Origin: Collybia mongolica
Lineage: Eukaryota; Basidiomycota; Agaricomycetes; Agaricales; Clitocybaceae
Assembly (NCBI GenBank): GCA_013420905.1
Contig: JAAXNY010000003.1
Coordinates: forward strand, 62,001 to 126,000
DNA: 64,000 nt
Direction of reading: 5' to 3'
Shown: positions 22,331 to 43,757 of the stretch, piece after piece
How the letters are laid out: every line of letters begins with the position of its first letter
Position numbering within the stretch: position 1 is the stretch's first letter
Notes under the pieces: generated by a model
Told to the model about the DNA's origin: nothing
What the model saw: only the letters and a program-made list of their open reading frames with translations
Database searches by the model: none
Translations under genes and position numbers: made by a program

Positions 22331-22384
22331 AATGGTAGTAGTAGTAAAGTTGAATGAACTGTACCTATGATGGAAAGGAATTCC

Positions 22385-22790
22385 ATCTGTCTCTCAATCC
22401 TACTCCCAATCCCTGCTCATCTCTGCTCATCCCTGCTCCCAATCCCTGCTCATCCCTGCTCATCCCTGCTCCCAATCCCTGCCCATCCCTACTCCCAATC
22501 CCTGCCCATCCCTGCTCATCCCTGCTCCCAATCCCTGCTCATCCCTGCTCATCCCTGCTCCCAATCCCTGCCCATCCCTACTCCCAATCCCTGCTCATCC
22601 CTGCTTATCCCTGCTCCCAATCCCTGCCCATCCCTACTCCCAATCCCTGCCCATCCCTACTCCCAATCCCTGCTCATCCCTGCTCATCCCTGCTCCCAAT
22701 CCCTGCTCATCTCTGCTCATCCCTGCTCCCAATCCCTGCCCATCCCTACTCCCAATCCCTGCTCATCCCTGTAATTTAAATCCCTGTTCA
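22385..22790. repeat. Minisatellite based on ATCCCTGCTC / CCAATCCCTG
   Basis: About 400 bp of short direct repeats mixing CATCCCTGCT and CCCAATCCCTGC units, with occasional CATCCCTACT variants. It ends in ATCCCTGTAATTTAAATCCC and then TAGCCCCATAACCCTAACCC, entering telomeric sequence. A related array with the same type of junction is at 44930-45130. Long reading frames here are an artefact of the stop-free repeat. Confidence 0.9.
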
Positions 22791-22818
22791 ATCCCTGTCC
22801 AATAAAAAAATAGCCCCA

Positions 22819-22842
22819 TAACCCTAACCCTAACCTAAATTG
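22819..22842. repeat. Interstitial telomeric repeat (CCCTAA)n, tract 1
   Basis: ATAACCCTAACCCTAACCTA followed by AATT, then the 3' cleavage-product sequence of the hammerhead ribozyme unit (GCTTGTTTGTAACG). The C-rich strand is on the plus strand, so the telomere-proximal side was to the left. Confidence 0.9.
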
Positions 22843-22913
22843 CTTGTTTGTAACGCAACTCATCGTACCAAAGTCACTCGCAACCTCGCTTCGCTCGGTT
22901 GCTCGTTCCTCCC
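22842..22913 (+). mobile_element. Short Penelope-like element fragment starting at the ribozyme cleavage site
   Basis: This ~72-nt sequence is identical or nearly so to 24845-24917 and 43688-43757, the part of the repeat that lies 3' of the hammerhead cleavage site. It ends in a hairpin-prone GCAACC...GGTTGC and CTCGTTCCTCC, followed at once by CCCTAACCC. It is bounded on both sides by telomeric repeats. Confidence 0.75.
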
Positions 22914-22930
22914 TAACCCTAACCCTAAAA
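22911..22930. repeat. Interstitial telomeric repeat, tract 2
   Basis: CCCTAACCCTAACCCTAAAA, abutting the 5'-truncated reverse transcriptase fragment on its right. Confidence 0.9.
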
Positions 22931-23845
22931 GCACCGTTCCTGGATATGATGTTATACATTGATATGCAGAACCGTTTGCAACACATGCCCTATCGGAAAA
23001 GTGGATCGCATCAGGAAAGAATTCCATGGATCTCTCACCACCCTCTAGATGTAAAAAGAGGAACTTACGTGGGCGAGATGTCCCGTTTAGCCACCCTGAG
23101 TAGTACATTTCAGAACTACCGGAACGCTATAGACTCGCTTCGTGCGCTCTATATACAGCGTGGCTATCCAGTGAAATTAGTATTGCAGTGGACTTCGGTC
23201 AATATGGCAGAACGATGGCAGAAACGTCTATCAGAGTCTAAGGGTTCTGGAGAGCTAGACAGTGTTCTGGTGCTTAAGTCTGAATTCAATACTGCTTGGA
23301 ATTACTTCTCTGCTCGAGAATTGGGTAACACAATCACGGATTTCTGGTCGTTATGGCTAAACCATAACCAGGCAGCTACGGAGGGGAATCGCTTACCCCC
23401 CATAGAGTTCCCACAATTATCTGGATCTTTGGGCAAGTTGGCCGATGGAGTCCCGGAGGCGTACACTGTGCGTCTTCAGGTCACTAACGGTACGACGACC
23501 TCAATACCAGATATACGGAAACTAGATATCCTAAAGCGCCGATGGATTGTCAGCCGCAAACGCACTCTCAATCTCTTCGACCTCGTAAATCTTTGGAAAA
23601 AGATTGTTATCGAACACTTAGACAAGGATGCAGCACGAAAGGCTGTACCCAATGAGCCCGTGGGTAACCCCCAGAATACGGTAGTAAGAACTATAAACCC
23701 CACTCCTAACATTGTGAACAGGGAACGGATCGAAACCATTCACACGCGCGAACGTGCGGACTCAGAGTTGGACCCCTTCGTCCTTGCTTGGAACCAAGGT
23801 TTTAGGCTCGGAGTGAACGCGGACCCTACTGGAGTAACTCTCTAA
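22931..23845 (+). pseudogene. 5'-truncated Penelope-like reverse transcriptase (thumb region onwards)
   Basis: About 300 codons are open, starting directly after a telomeric repeat. Near the beginning is MLYIDMQNRLQHMPYRKSG, then HHPLDVKRGTYVGEMSRLA, LSSTFQNYRNAIDSLRALY and QRGYP. In Penelope-like elements the region just after the RT catalytic core reads HPxxVKRG...R...SS...F...L...RGYP, so this looks like the C-terminal palm/thumb of such an enzyme. The catalytic YxDD core lies upstream and is missing. Known telomere-associated, endonuclease-deficient Penelope-like elements of basidiomycetes (Coprina) are 5'-truncated and capped with telomeric repeats in this way. I see no GIY-YIG endonuclease before the stop at 23845. 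It is a non-autonomous relic here, with family assignment from motif recall. Confidence 0.65.
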
Positions 23846-24351
23846 TCTGCGCCTTTGGTATCCCCAGAGGTGATGGCCTAGGAAACCGGTCGCAATGCAG
23901 CTCCTGTTGCACTTTATGGTCTGTGCTCAGCGAAAAGTGAAATAACTTTTGATGATCTTGTGGGCTAAGGCCCCACACCTGTCGCGGCTTACCCCGCGCA
24001 GTTGATCTCCTTTACGGAACGATTACCTCTTGATCTTTGGTATAAGTCTATCTATCTGAGGCGTAGCATGCTGGTGGATTCCGGCTGGTTACGAAAAGTA
24101 ATAGCGCCCAAGTTGATTGAGGTTGGGGACTGGGTTCCCCCTGTAAAATTGAACCTCGTTTAAAGATCTATTTCGTCTTAAGGGACGTCGCCTAGTAGCA
24201 ACTCCCCGCTTGAATCACTCTAAGTGTCAATTCTCGTAAGAACTCCTTGAAAAACTGTCTATTCTCCCAGTTTTTCCACTCACTACATACGTTTACCAGA
24301 AGCTCTGTTTAAAATCTGGGACATGTCGGTTTTAGATGGCCGTTGGAACAT
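23846..24351 (+). mobile_element. 3' untranslated part of the Penelope-like element
   Basis: GC-balanced sequence without reading frames but with self-complementary pieces (GTGGGCTAAGGCCCCAC near 23960, CGCGGCTTACCCCGCG near 23984). It ends at CGTTGGAACATCCTAACCCT, where telomeric repeats resume. This fits the element's structured 3' end joined to the chromosome through telomeric sequence. Confidence 0.5.
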
Positions 24352-24446
24352 CCTAACCCTAACGTACGTAGCTTCGACTTAACCGTCGAAACGACCAGCT
24401 AACGGTCTTTTATTTTAACGAATAATAGCCTAACCCTAACCGCTAA
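24352..24446. repeat. Telomeric tracts 3 and 4 around an 65-nt fragment
   Basis: CCTAACCCTAACG at 24352-24364 and CCTAACCCTAACCG at 24429-24442, enclosing a short stretch (24365-24428) with no recognisable content. Degenerate TAACC repeats continue to about 24460. Confidence 0.75.
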
Positions 24447-24913
24447 CCTTTAACCTTAAAGGCTAAGTAGCCGGGCCGATGGGGCCCGGCGCCTAAGTAT
24501 AGCGCGGCTAAAAAAAGATAAGATCCAGGCACGAGATCCATCTTCTTTATTGATCCGCGTCGGTGAATAGCTAACCGAAATTGATCCGCGTATCGGATAA
24601 ATACTAAGGTAGGGCGGGCCAACATGGACCGCGTTCCATGCGCGTTGAACGCGCATGCCAGCGCACACCCCCTCACATGGCGTAACATGTGTCTGAGGGG
24701 TTTACGCTGTGGTCGCTCGGAAAAACCGCGCGCGCGCCGTAACGGTGCGGCGGCGCGAGCGGAGAAACTGATTAAACATTAACAAACAGGCCTGATGAGT
24801 ACTTATACGAAACAGGTCGGGTGGGGGATTCCCCCAACCCTGTTGCTTGTTTGTAACGCAACTCATCGTACCAAAGTCACTCGCAACCTCGCTTCGCTCG
24901 GTTGCTCGTTCCT
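24447..24913 (+). mobile_element. Penelope-like element 3' repeat (pLTR-like) with hammerhead ribozyme
   Basis: A GC-rich segment with several inverted repeats (GCCGGGCCGATGGGGCCCGGC near 24470; GCGCGTTGAACGCGC near 24638). It then enters the conserved unit CACATGGCGTAACATG...GAGCGGAGAA...ACAAACAGGCCTGATGAG that is repeated at 43516-43700. It ends at CTCGTTCCTCC followed by telomeric repeats. Terminal repeats of Penelope-like elements are known to carry hammerhead ribozymes, which matches. Confidence 0.65.
24782..24854 (+). ncRNA. Hammerhead ribozyme, copy 1
   Basis: All parts of a type I hammerhead are visible. Stem I is ACAAACAGGC (24782-24791) pairing with GCTTGTTTGT (24845-24854), ten pairs including one G-U. 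The core is CTGATGA (24792-24798). Stem II is GTA/TAC with loop CTTA (24799-24808). Then comes GAAA (24809-24812). Stem III is CAG...GGGTGGGGG with CCCCCAACC...CTG and loop ATT (24813-24842, small internal mismatches). The cleavage triplet is GTT, so cutting is predicted after T24844. The short stem II is typical of retroelement-borne ribozymes. It should self-cleave the element's transcript. Confidence 0.88.
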
Positions 24914-25052
24914 CCCTAACCTAACCCTAACCGTGAGTACTTGTTTGCTTAATGCATCCGATCTACGTCAATCTGACATTGAACGAATTAGCTAACCCAA
25001 ACCCTAACCTAACCGTTAACCTAACCCTAACCGGTTAACCCAACCTAACCCG
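24914..25052. repeat. Telomeric tracts 5 and 6
   Basis: CCTAACCTAACCCTAACCG at 24914-24932 directly follows the conserved element end. A degenerate tract of TAACC/CCCTAACC units runs from 24992 to about 25050. Between them is a short AT-richer insert of unknown origin. Confidence 0.8.
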
Positions 25053-25575
25053 CCTGAGCCGGACCGGACCTTGATCCGATCACCGGCCCGACATGGACGG
25101 TTAAAGGCCACGTGCCCGGTCCGAAATGACCGCGACGTGTGAAAGGTTACTAATCATTACAGCTGACCGGAGTAATCCGTTCGGCTTTGTTCCCACAGGT
25201 TGTCAAGGTCGTTAATAGACGGTCGCCGATTGGTGCCCAACACACTGCCTTCGGGCAGAGTTAGTAAGCCCGCCTCGGCGATGTCGTGCTCTATTCCGAT
25301 CTGCCAGACGCTATGGAAGCGACTGCGCATCTGTCATGCGCGCAAATGGCCATTGGCCGCCTCTGACAGGTAGATGACTAAGTATCCCGACTTTAGCCTA
25401 ACTTCGGAACAAAGCTAAAGTCCGCAGCAACCCGTATACACCCTAAAACCGATCTGAAGAGTCTTAAAAGACGAAAGGATCCGACCGGTGGTCTCCTCCA
25501 TCGATCCTTATCGGTAAATTTCGCCTACTCAACTATATCCTCCAACAAAAACGCTTCGCGTTTTTGTTGTCGTCC
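25053..25575 (+). mobile_element. Second, different element 3' end joined to telomeric repeat
   Basis: About 520 bp without a reading frame but with several inverted repeats. It ends with a perfect 12-bp hairpin (25543-25554 with 25558-25569, loop TTC), then TCGTCCA and CCCTAACCCTAACC. Like the ribozyme-bearing element, it has a hairpin just upstream of the telomeric junction. I infer a 5'-truncated member of another Penelope-like subfamily; no protein-coding part remains to prove it. Confidence 0.4.
25543..25569 (+). other. Perfect terminal hairpin next to telomeric repeat
   Basis: CAACAAAAACGC pairs fully with GCGTTTTTGTTG around a TTC loop, six nucleotides before the CCCTAA tract. It could be the recognition structure at the 3' end of a retroelement RNA. 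Confidence 0.7.
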
Positions 25576-25593
25576 ACCCTAACCCTAACCTAA
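25576..25593. repeat. Telomeric tract 7, at the truncated helicase end
   Basis: CCCTAACCCTAACCTAAAG joins directly to the 3' end of the RecQ gene. It supplies that gene's apparent stop codon in reverse complement (GGTTAG). Confidence 0.9.
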
Positions 25594-28500
25594 AGTGTCT
25601 TTGCCAAAACAGAGACAGAATGAGCAGTTATTCTTGTACATTGCAAGTGCACGTTCAAAACTGTCAATATATTCACCATTGGATGCAACGCGTAGTGTCT
25701 TGCGTTTCTTTGACTGCGCGGTTGCAGCATCAAACGCACTGGTAGGAGGCATCACAGCACGTTTCCCAGAGCTGTGTAAAAACCGGTCATGACCGAAAAT
25801 AACATGTGCACAGTTGGGGATTCTAACCTTGTCACAGCTTCCATCCTACCAGTACCAGATTTGCATCGACTGCATTTATTGCCATCACTCGTATCAGGAC
25901 AGTACACCCCTTTTCCATCATTGAACAACGTGATCCTGTATCGAAAGCACTGTGCTGTTTGGAAGATGATCGTCCAAGCATCCATCTTCCCACTGAAATC
26001 AGTGACATTGGGGTCAATGGTGGGCATCTTTGGTTTACCAATTGGCAATACAAAGCACTGGGCTCGGGCTTGGTCTCTGCCAGCGCGTGACATCTCCTGG
26101 GTGAATCCAATCATTTCCTTGGGGTTTCCTACGTGAATTGTTGCTCGGACATGGGCATAATCATTTCCGGCGCCAAATGAAGATGTGCACACCATGACCT
26201 TTGCCTTGCCAGATATCCAGTCATTGTAAAAGAGCTGGCGGTCCTGATTTGAGGTATCCCGGTGTCCATTGTAAAAAGGGCATGACAACATCTGCGCAAG
26301 ACGTTTTCCCCAGTCGAGATAGGGCACAAATATCAACCCCCGATCACGTGGGCTGAAACTGGTTTCCAACTTTTCATAGAGTGTGACTGCACGCCGCATG
26401 TTAGCCAGTGCATCGCTTTCTGTGCTCTGGATGATGTACTCCAGCTCAGGTCTATCAGATGGAGTGCGGAAAACCTTGGAGTCTTCCATCATGCCAAACG
26501 TGTCCAACAGGCTGGCTTGTATGCAAGGGGGTACGGTTCCCGACAAGAGAACGAGCTGCATCGGAAACACCCTGAGCTCATGTAGATTCTGCAGAGATGT
26601 GCGGAAATCCTGGGCAGTGAGGGCGAGCTGTGCCTCATCAAACACCAACCGCACGACACGCTTTCGCATGTTGAGTTCCCCAATGGCCTTTTCCCATCCG
26701 CGCATACGGGCCTGATCGGCTGAAACAAGGACCAGATTGTGAGATCCATTCAATTGGGGTGAGTGTTTGGGCCCAAAGAGTTCATACCCAATCCCTATCT
26801 GATCTAGTTTGCGAACATAATCCATAATCAAAGATTTGAGCGGCAGAACCACAACCGTAACCCATCCGTCTTCGACCATTGGAGGGATCAGAGCAAGCAT
26901 TGTCTTTCCATAACCTGTGGCCATTATGGCACAAATGTCTGTGCGCAACTCGAGTGTTGCTCTGACCGCATCACGTTGAGTCTCGCTGCGCCATTCTGCC
27001 TTGGGGTTGCCACTTATCTTACGCAGAGCTTGGATACACTGTTCCTCACGTATGAACACTCCATGATTCTCTACCGAATCCCACGTCAAGTCTGAGCATG
27101 GACAAAAATAACACTAACCTTGTTTACCTTTTGGTTGACTGAAGAACGCCTTGTTTGTGGGAAAAGACACTTCCCGGCACGCCTCGTCCTCAATGTAGTC
27201 ACCACCTTCATCATGTCCAGCTATCACGTCGTCTTCTTCCATGTCGTCTTCATCCAGGACCCAATCAGGATGCCTAACCTTGGGGGAGCTGGGGGTCAGA
27301 GGCTGGACGTCGTCAACCAGCGTCACTTCTGGATCGTTTTCTTGAACGATTGGACCTGTGAACGCTAACCGGATTGTAGCCCTTGAGCGTTAGAATGATT
27401 AAATCAGAGTGCGAACCCTTTCCACTCACGAGAGGCCGGTCGGTGTGTGACAGGGCTTACAAATGCTGCCTTCTGCTGCATTGCATTCATGGTTTGCTCC
27501 ACGGAACTCGTTATGTGCTCTTCAAGGATCGGTTGGAGTCTTTTGACAATGGCTTGTGCGAGAGAGTCGTGAGCGTCCGTCTGGCTCTTTAGGGACCTGG
27601 GTATCAACCCGGATGTCACCAAGGCCGGGAACCTCGACGCACGCACTTGCGTGTACGGCAGCAAAAGTCCACCTGGAACAGTTTTGCACTCGACTTGCCA
27701 TTCCGTGCTTGCATCCAAATAGAGGGGTAGCACGTCCTCAGCCGCGCCAGCCAGGGTTTCAGCACTGACGCCATATATTCTGTTTTCCGTTTTACGAGAG
27801 TGGGATGACTGCAGAGCCTCGATGGTTTCAGAATCGTCATCCTGGAGGAGATCAGACATCTTGGAACACATCTTGCGCCTCCAGGCAGCACTAATATGCC
27901 GCCATGCCTGGACTCCAAAGGAATAGCCTAGAGCCTCTTGGGTATAACGCTTCAGGACGTTGGTTATGTCCGTGGTCACAAATAACTTTCCATTGTTCAC
28001 AAAGAGGCTGTTGGAATAGAGTGCCTGGATGGTCGGATCATCTCGATAGCACTGAAGGACCGCCAGTTCTGCAAACGGGCGTGCGAGGGCAAGATCTTGA
28101 ATAACAAGGTCGGACGTGACTGCATCAAGAGCATGAGGGATAAGCTTATCCTGTCCTGTGATCGCACTGCCTTTGTGGTACGTAACCAGTATGGACAGGT
28201 ATTGTCCAAAGGCAAGCAGGTTGCGGGTGCTGGCGGTTGGTATGTTTCTGTACGACATCGCGGTAACCTCTGTAACACGACCGGGGGACCCGCCCAGCAG
28301 CTCGGCACGGACAATCAGCAGCGCATGGAATCGGGAATAATGAAAGAGCCACTCGCGGAACCTGGCCTTGTTCCAGATGGGCATGCCAGTCAGTGGATCG
28401 GCGCCAACAACAAACCTTTCCCTGAGAGGCACGCTGTCCAACACACATCTAATCATTGTGTCCTGTTCCCGATGAAACGGATTTCGACTATCCGAGATAA

Positions 28501-43375: not shown

Positions 43376-43390
43376 AGTAGATTATTAGGC

Positions 43391-43453
43391 CTGATGAGTA
43401 TATATACGAAACAGGTCGGGTGGGGGATTCCCCCAACCCTGTTGCTTGTTTGT
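43391..43453 (+). ncRNA. Hammerhead ribozyme, copy 2, outer stem I broken
   Basis: CTGATGA (43391-43397), stem II GTA/TAC with loop TATA, GAAA, the same G/C-rich stem III and the GTT cleavage triplet are all present, with GCTTGTTTGT downstream (43444-43453). Upstream of the core the sequence is ATTATTAGGC rather than ACAAACAGGC, so only the AGGC part of stem I pairs well. It marks the 5' boundary of the repeat unit here; cleavage may be weakened. Confidence 0.7.
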
Positions 43454-43515
43454 AACGCAACTCATCGTACCTAAGTCACTCGCAACCTCGCTTCGCTCGG
43501 TTGCTCGTTCCTCCC

Positions 43516-43757
43516 TCACATGGCGTAACATGTGCTCTGAGGGGTATACGCTATGGTCGCTCGGAAAAACCGCGCGCGCGCCGTTACGGTGCGGCGGCGC
43601 GAGCGGAGAATCTGATTAACATTAACAAACAGGCCTGATGAGTATATATACGAAACAGGTCGGGTGGGGGATTCCCCCAACCCTGTTGCTTGTTTGTAAC
43701 GCAACTCATCGTACCTAAGTCACTCGCAACCTCGCTTCGCTCGGTTGCTCGTTCCTC
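43516..43757 (+). mobile_element. Second tandem pLTR-like unit of the Penelope-like element
   Basis: From CACATGGCGTAACATG to CTCGTTCCTCC this unit matches 24676-24913 closely. It follows the previous ribozyme unit with a spacing of 244 nt between cores, so two repeats lie head to tail, as tandem pLTRs of Penelope-like elements do. It runs directly into CCCTAACCCTAACC. Confidence 0.7.
43625..43697 (+). ncRNA. Hammerhead ribozyme, copy 3, intact
   Basis: Stem I ACAAACAGGC (43625-43634) pairs with GCTTGTTTGT (43688-43697). The CTGATGA core, stem II GTA-TATA-TAC, GAAA and stem III are complete. It differs from copy 1 mainly in the stem II loop. Predicted cleavage is after T43687. Confidence 0.88.

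Follow-up and report, generated by a model that had tools for sequence, protein, structure and literature searches.

The subtelomeric DNA of the mushroom Collybia mongolica raises the question of whether a self-cleaving RNA lies within a retroelement at chromosome ends, and whether cleavage takes part in attaching that element to telomeres. From the letters of a 64,000-nucleotide window, the whole stretch of DNA analysed here, an intact hammerhead ribozyme had been predicted in a telomere-associated retroelement of a basidiomycete. The host assignment holds: a host ABC transporter encoded in the window shares 91% identity with one of Collybia nuda (Agaricales). The explanation that best accounts for the observations overall, and that we regard as probable, is a hammerhead-bearing Penelope-like element that inserts at chromosome ends and whose cut RNA gives rise to mini-elements.

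The predicted ribozyme, assigned to family A, occupies positions 24782–24854 on the forward strand. Stem I pairs ACAAACAGGC (24782–24791) with GCTTGTTTGT (24845–24854) at all 10 positions, including one G-U pair, and forms a continuous helix with no evident loop for tertiary contact with loop II. The core comprises CTGATGA (24792–24798) and GAA (24809–24811), the same core as in the minimal type I hammerheads known from Penelope-like elements, and stem II is GTA[CTTA]TAC (24799–24808, 3 bp). A CUGANGA and GAA core, three helices and an open stem I define the site as type I, and the original prediction proved exact to the base when read in the sequence; a descriptor search and a covariance model built from a second family (E 1.2e-5) also recover the site. 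Reading of the motif likewise places the predicted cut between T24844 and G24845, after T24844 as had been proposed. Stem III (A24812 to T24843) is long, as claimed, but interrupted: five outer pairs are followed by a 4-nt bulge and seven inner pairs with one bulged A.

The descriptor, which required at least five, three and four pairs in stems I, II and III, respectively, matched the window three times, always on the forward strand (CTGA at 24792, 25454 and 43635). It matched none of 540 simulated Markov-1 windows with the same dinucleotide frequencies (0/40, then 0/500 more). The third site is a family A hammerhead in a truncated copy at 43625–43697 (forward strand; descriptor and covariance model), with the loop II variant TATA and followed by CCCTAACCCTAACC. 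A further truncated family A copy, at 43387–43511 on the same strand, retains the hammerhead without the outer part of stem I and was found by the covariance model.

The Rfam covariance search suggested as a check went against the prediction: Rfam 15 gave nothing above threshold in the window, and its hammerhead models gave no match over 24500–25200 even at E ≤ 10. Genome-wide, RF00163 yielded six sub-threshold places among 73 scored of 7911 candidates, and none of these is a hammerhead site found here. All six were rejected; the three that were examined (C1:2601, L057; C22:10179, L058; C4:3204704, L066) had no descriptor match, looser stems included. At E ≤ 10, RF00163 also gives matches in 11 of 14 control genomes. 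The missing Rfam match would suit a fortuitous resemblance to a hammerhead within a subtelomeric repeat, but the empty simulated windows, a layout common to two families and the detection of one family by the other's model argue against it. The existence of the second family already contradicts this reading, which is very improbable.

The second family, family B, has its hammerhead at 25448–25515 (forward strand), recognised by descriptor, pairs and fold, with a predicted cut between T25509 and A25510. It reads ACCGAT CTGAAGA GTCT TAAA AGAC GAA AGGATC...GATCCT T ATCGGT, a motif diverged from that of family A rather than copied from it, and it is placed in the same way with respect to its hairpin tail and CCCTAA. 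The family B 3′ tail (25510–25576, forward strand) contains the hairpin CAACAAAAACGCTTCGCGTTTTTGTTG at 25543–25569, and CCCTAACCCTAACC follows at the 3′ junction (25577–25590, forward strand). At least 45 places in the genome match the 177-bp surroundings of this site, in whole or in part. Across nine family B versions, pairing is kept in 98.6% of cells over 16 pairs, and C-G replaces A-U at the outer stem I pair in three of the nine; a double-sided change occurs in only one of the 16 pairs. The covariation score was equalled in 8 of 500 shuffles and the count of double-sided pairs in 386 of 500, and covariation within family B appears modest.

A covariance model was built from the nine family B sequences alone and run on the window without filters. 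It ranked the family B site first, then three family A sites (E 1.1e-6, 1.2e-5 and 8.8e-4), with the next match in the window at E 0.73, all E-values of this model being rough. On 22 loci, the same model gave 44 matches at E ≤ 1, each recognisable as a site of family A or of family B, with truncated ones among them. Pairing is thereby conserved across the two diverged families, and no other evidence for a hammerhead in family A is as strong as its detection by the family B model.

Conservation among family A copies follows the predicted structure. In 44 copies, with 36 to 40 present at most hammerhead sites, stems and core together show 4 minor letters in 2430 cells and the core none in 415; the cells are not independent because the copies are related. 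Loops II and III show 26 minor letters in 471 cells, 342 sites upstream show 193 in 10105, and the tail shows 17 in 2551. Variation is concentrated in the loops.

The unchanged core bears on whether the hammerhead is a degenerate relic, with the 3′ end selected only as a fold for binding the reverse transcriptase (RT). The free fold of family A, in which GGCCUG pairs with CAGGUC, beats the hammerhead fold by 5.6 kcal/mol (−29.8 versus −24.2), a competition that would be expected of a relic, as would the lack of an Rfam score for the family A motif and the core change G12 to A in two family B variants (L030 and L070). Against these stand the invariant family A core, the retained pairing of family B, including one pair changed on both sides, and a family B hammerhead fold within 1.2 kcal/mol of its MFE. 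A relic is thus rather unlikely, and we favour, with reasonable though incomplete confidence, a genuine type I hammerhead at 24782–24854, within the 3′ terminal part of a retroelement of the Penelope-like kind. One further variant, L055 (C4:26900–27500), is a family A hammerhead in which a 26-nt unit is duplicated between AAACAGG direct repeats, giving two nested cores.

The element carrying the family A ribozyme is a 5′-truncated copy at 22929–24912 (forward strand), consisting of the C-terminal part of the RT frame (RT homology at 22928–23842), a 3′ region, the hammerhead and the tail. The tandem family A unit is 4679 bp long with one long frame of 1241 codons. The tandem family B unit measures 4583 bp, and one such unit has a frame of 1166 codons that is 44% identical to that of family A; other stretches of the family B group reach 53% identity. 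Three stop-free family A copies were found, at C11:474 (the query), C21:401671 (100% identical) and C1:21737. The 1241-residue family A product contains FYGIPKIHK, MRPIIP and YIDD, which we take to be RT motifs. Foldseek placed TERT structures at ranks 1–5 for the predicted structure of the RT part (mean pLDDT 76; TM-scores 0.34–0.40), the C-terminal part of the model being of low confidence.

A search for RT relatives returned 334, and among the best 120 of these one is from Lentinula edodes. PF00078 is annotated on part of these best 120 and is sub-threshold on one relative within the genome. Pfam gave no match at all in the family A RT protein (P0001): no GIY-YIG domain was found, but RVT_1 was likewise unmatched. 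Scanning the RT alignment against viral and genome contig collections gave no lead, and neither did a sequence search of solved structures. By its RT motifs and predicted fold, the element appears to be Penelope-like with a telomerase-like RT, and it is probably of the Coprina type, without endonuclease.

Placement in the genome bears out a telomere-associated element. The family A 3′ tail (24845–24912, forward strand) covers the 68 nt between the predicted cut and the telomeric junction. The arms of its hairpin lie at 24883–24888 and 24900–24905, and CCCTAACCTAACCCTAACC follows the tail at 24914–24932 (forward strand). Among the genome matches listed, 41 of 42 family A tails lie near contig ends, within 105,688 bp, with the 3′ end inward; the single exception is on a 50.7-kb contig. 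Orientation was counted for family A only, and copy numbers are lower bounds, as each genome copy search scored approximately 40 candidates. Just past the invariant end, CCTAA occurs within 10 nt in 41 of 45 family A 3′ ends, in varying register, and beyond it the sequence mostly differs between copies. CCCTAA arrays terminate six of the ten contig ends inspected. Family A thus displays the terminal attachment and inward orientation that mark Coprina and Athena elements, and its varied-register junctions fit priming from a telomeric overhang, as published for related elements. The hammerhead does not, however, lie right at the CCCTAA junction as first proposed: the cut is 68 nt upstream, with the hairpin tail between.

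Several other observations concern telomeric sequence and these 3′ ends. Telomere-like CCTAACC runs also occur inside the window (24352–24363, 24429–24441 and 24992–25053), upstream of both 3′ ends, and some copies seem attached at internal runs of this kind (C7:4995). A diverged family B 3′ end at C8:1303911 (L070, C8:1303820–1304020) lies in the interior of a 3.6-Mb contig and is followed by CCCTAACCTAACC, possibly a trace of chromosome end fusion. Head-to-tail arrays of A and B elements with short CCCTAA spacers occupy chromosome ends at L009 (C3:55907–59107), L035 (C11:1–8000) and L037 (C3:1–10000), an arrangement that makes relative dating of insertions possible. A hammerhead at both ends of a unit, as in an LTR-like element, was considered and rejected: the CCCTAA spacer between tail and body varies, which suggests that the 5′ hammerhead belongs to the upstream copy.

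The position of the cut constrains what cleavage could do. Lying 68 nt upstream of the junction, it would detach the telomeric anchor from the body, contrary to the notion that cleavage produces the attaching end. Of 44 family A copies, 36 extend through the ribozyme core, so that their RNA template was uncut, and 33 keep the whole 5′ strand of stem I. No 3′ end falls at the cut among the 39 family A and 43 family B stem III arms in the stretches examined. The C9 contig end proved to be only a contig edge.

Three 68-nt tails nevertheless occur as mini-elements that start 0–2 nt from the predicted cut. In the window, one spans 22842–22909 (forward strand), preceded by telomeric repeats (22822–22841, ending in CCTAAATT) and followed by CCCTAA repeats (22911–22928). 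Its 5′ junction joins CCTAAATT to GCTTG; the others, at C3:57621 and C15:503544, join CCCTAACCCT and CCCTAAATT, respectively, to GCTTG. The 3′ junctions differ (CCTCCC at 22842, CAACCC at C3:57621 and CCACCC at C15:503544), and since each mini-element has its own, the three are probably separate events, although those at 22842 and C15:503544 have a common upstream repeat and the letters ATT. The C15:503544 site was also weighed as a full-length copy starting at the cut; this was rejected, as the tail is followed by CCCTAACCTAACC and a differently starting body, and the site is read as a mini-element plus a second copy.

To place these starts among all family A 5′ ends, 20 telomere-capped starts were kept from 49 rows and entered by hand. 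Dropped were six double mappings, five short tail fragments, five rows at stretch edges, nine AGG/TAG junctions, two rows joined to family B ends inside stem III and two joined to family C without clear repeats. The nine AGG/TAG junctions were rejected as RT ends, since the sequence joined there consists of other repeats rather than telomeric DNA. Among the 20, C7:4995 and C3:105513 are capped only by another tail and a CCCT start, and the start positions of C11:115 and C11:3103064 are uncertain, as both fall within a telomere-like stretch inside the element. Seventeen of the 20 starts are no more than 500 nt away from the cut; three of these 17 fall in the 3-nt cut interval. Under a uniform null, this enrichment has a probability of approximately 1e-4, or 3e-3 if two of the starts represent one event (2/16), both values being post hoc. 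For family B, none of 46 rows (11 at stretch edges and one place mapped twice) starts at the cut, the nearest being 5 nt downstream.

These mini-copies could also arise if a real hammerhead stays uncut and the RT pauses at the base of its GC-rich stem III, attachment being independent of cleavage. TT, one pair inside stem III, opens two of the three mini-elements, the two with a common upstream repeat; this would suit either additional letters or, with uncut RNA as template, a halt 2 nt before the cut. Further 5′ ends lie inside the hammerhead at C1:26549 and, on the far side of stem III, at C4:4977365. Moreover, a published Penelope-like element assayed in vitro inserts just as well when its hammerhead is inactivated, and no reads end at the site (PMC11167929). 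Stalling accounts less readily for C3:57621, where GCTTG directly follows telomeric CCCT, or for three of 17 starts at the exact 3-nt site. We consider it a possible but less favoured origin, and the mini-copies at the cut suggest instead that the 3′ cleavage product itself was copied onto telomeres. The proposed tie between self-cleavage and attachment is therefore upheld in part: three mini-copies start at the predicted cut, but the 36 of 44 copies derived from uncut RNA make them a side product.

A mechanism can be proposed on the preferred reading, that of a hammerhead-bearing element whose cut RNA yields mini-elements. The 3′ end of the element RNA would read hammerhead, 68-nt hairpin tail, CCCUAA. 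From the junctions and published models of related elements, the CCCUAA would pair with the G-rich telomeric overhang, which the telomerase-like RT would extend. Uncut RNA would give the full or 5′-truncated copies, the dominant sort. Hammerhead cleavage would yield an anchorless upstream piece and a 3′ piece of tail plus anchor, and the RT, copying the latter to its 5′ end, would generate 68-nt mini-elements starting at the cut; cut RNA primed internally is an alternative template. Where copies lie head to tail, read-through RNA would also be freed by the ribozyme of the copy upstream. More speculatively, the RNA may have two fates, uncut RNA adding a whole or truncated element and cut RNA yielding a mobile 68-nt telomere-capping unit, in which case the genome would hold a record of cleavage in living cells; the ratio would then be set by the competing fold of family A.

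Other subtelomeric features adjoin these elements. Different sequences, ending in CACAAGTAGATTATT, ACTAATATAGAT or GGAATAATGTT, are joined at AGG to various points within family A and B copies. The junctions lie at 43387 in the window and at C1:21464, C1:89538, C22:28894, C11:3106114, C1:107704, C11:3085483, C24:145037, C7:8527 and C22:40957. A minisatellite of the CCCTGCTCAT type (22363–22840) has a 3′ end, AATAGCCCCATAACCCTAACC, that adjoins the telomeric repeats capping several elements. It is possibly a third telomere-attaching family, and no hammerhead was found within it at 22363–22840. A subtelomeric DEAD-box helicase fragment on the reverse strand (25752–27113; Pfam DEAD and Helicase_C) is perhaps a telomere-linked helicase.

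Gladyshev and Arkhipova (2007) reportedly described Coprina as an endonuclease-less Penelope-like RT found at telomeres in basidiomycetes; the elements here have in common with Coprina the basidiomycete host, telomere attachment and Penelope-like RT. In the literature searched, no hammerhead was found in a basidiomycete or Coprina element, the likeliest papers being outside the reach of that search. Terminons of bdelloid rotifers are telomere-attached, endonuclease-deficient Penelope-like elements with head-to-tail, 5′-truncated copies, whose 3′ end carries a hammerhead and then reverse-complement telomeric repeats (PMC6431247, PMC12477314). The Collybia elements are alike in this 3′ layout. 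Unlike Terminons, which are giant (up to 40 kb) with accessory genes, they are compact units of 4.6–4.7 kb with one long frame each, in a mushroom host with CCCTAA telomeres. They further differ in a long closed stem III, in the 68-nt hairpin tail that separates the cut from the anchor, and in mini-copies starting at the cut.

Reviews describe minimal type I hammerheads in Penelope-like elements, with no known role (PMC7761336, PMC6155905), and one of them states that the motif is present in every available Penelope-like sequence (PMC6155905). In such hammerheads (Cervera and de la Pena 2014; Luense 2017), helix III is usually absent and cleavage may take place in a dimer (PMC7761336, PMC6155905, PMC7229834). 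The elements here share the type I topology and the Penelope-like context but have a stem III of 12 pairs in family A and at least six in family B, and folding from a single copy is therefore expected. Among fungi, Yarrowia was named in 2011 as having a hammerhead (PMC3088659). Retrozymes also link hammerheads with retrotransposition but are non-autonomous and use circular RNA (PMC7761336), whereas the present elements are RT-coding units. The Collybia elements join the known Terminon-like layout with an unusual genomic trace, and no new class is claimed. With well-kept ribozymes in two RT families, stop-free copies at chromosome ends and mini-insertions at the predicted cut, they provide a tractable test case for hammerhead cleavage in cells and for its role in telomere attachment.
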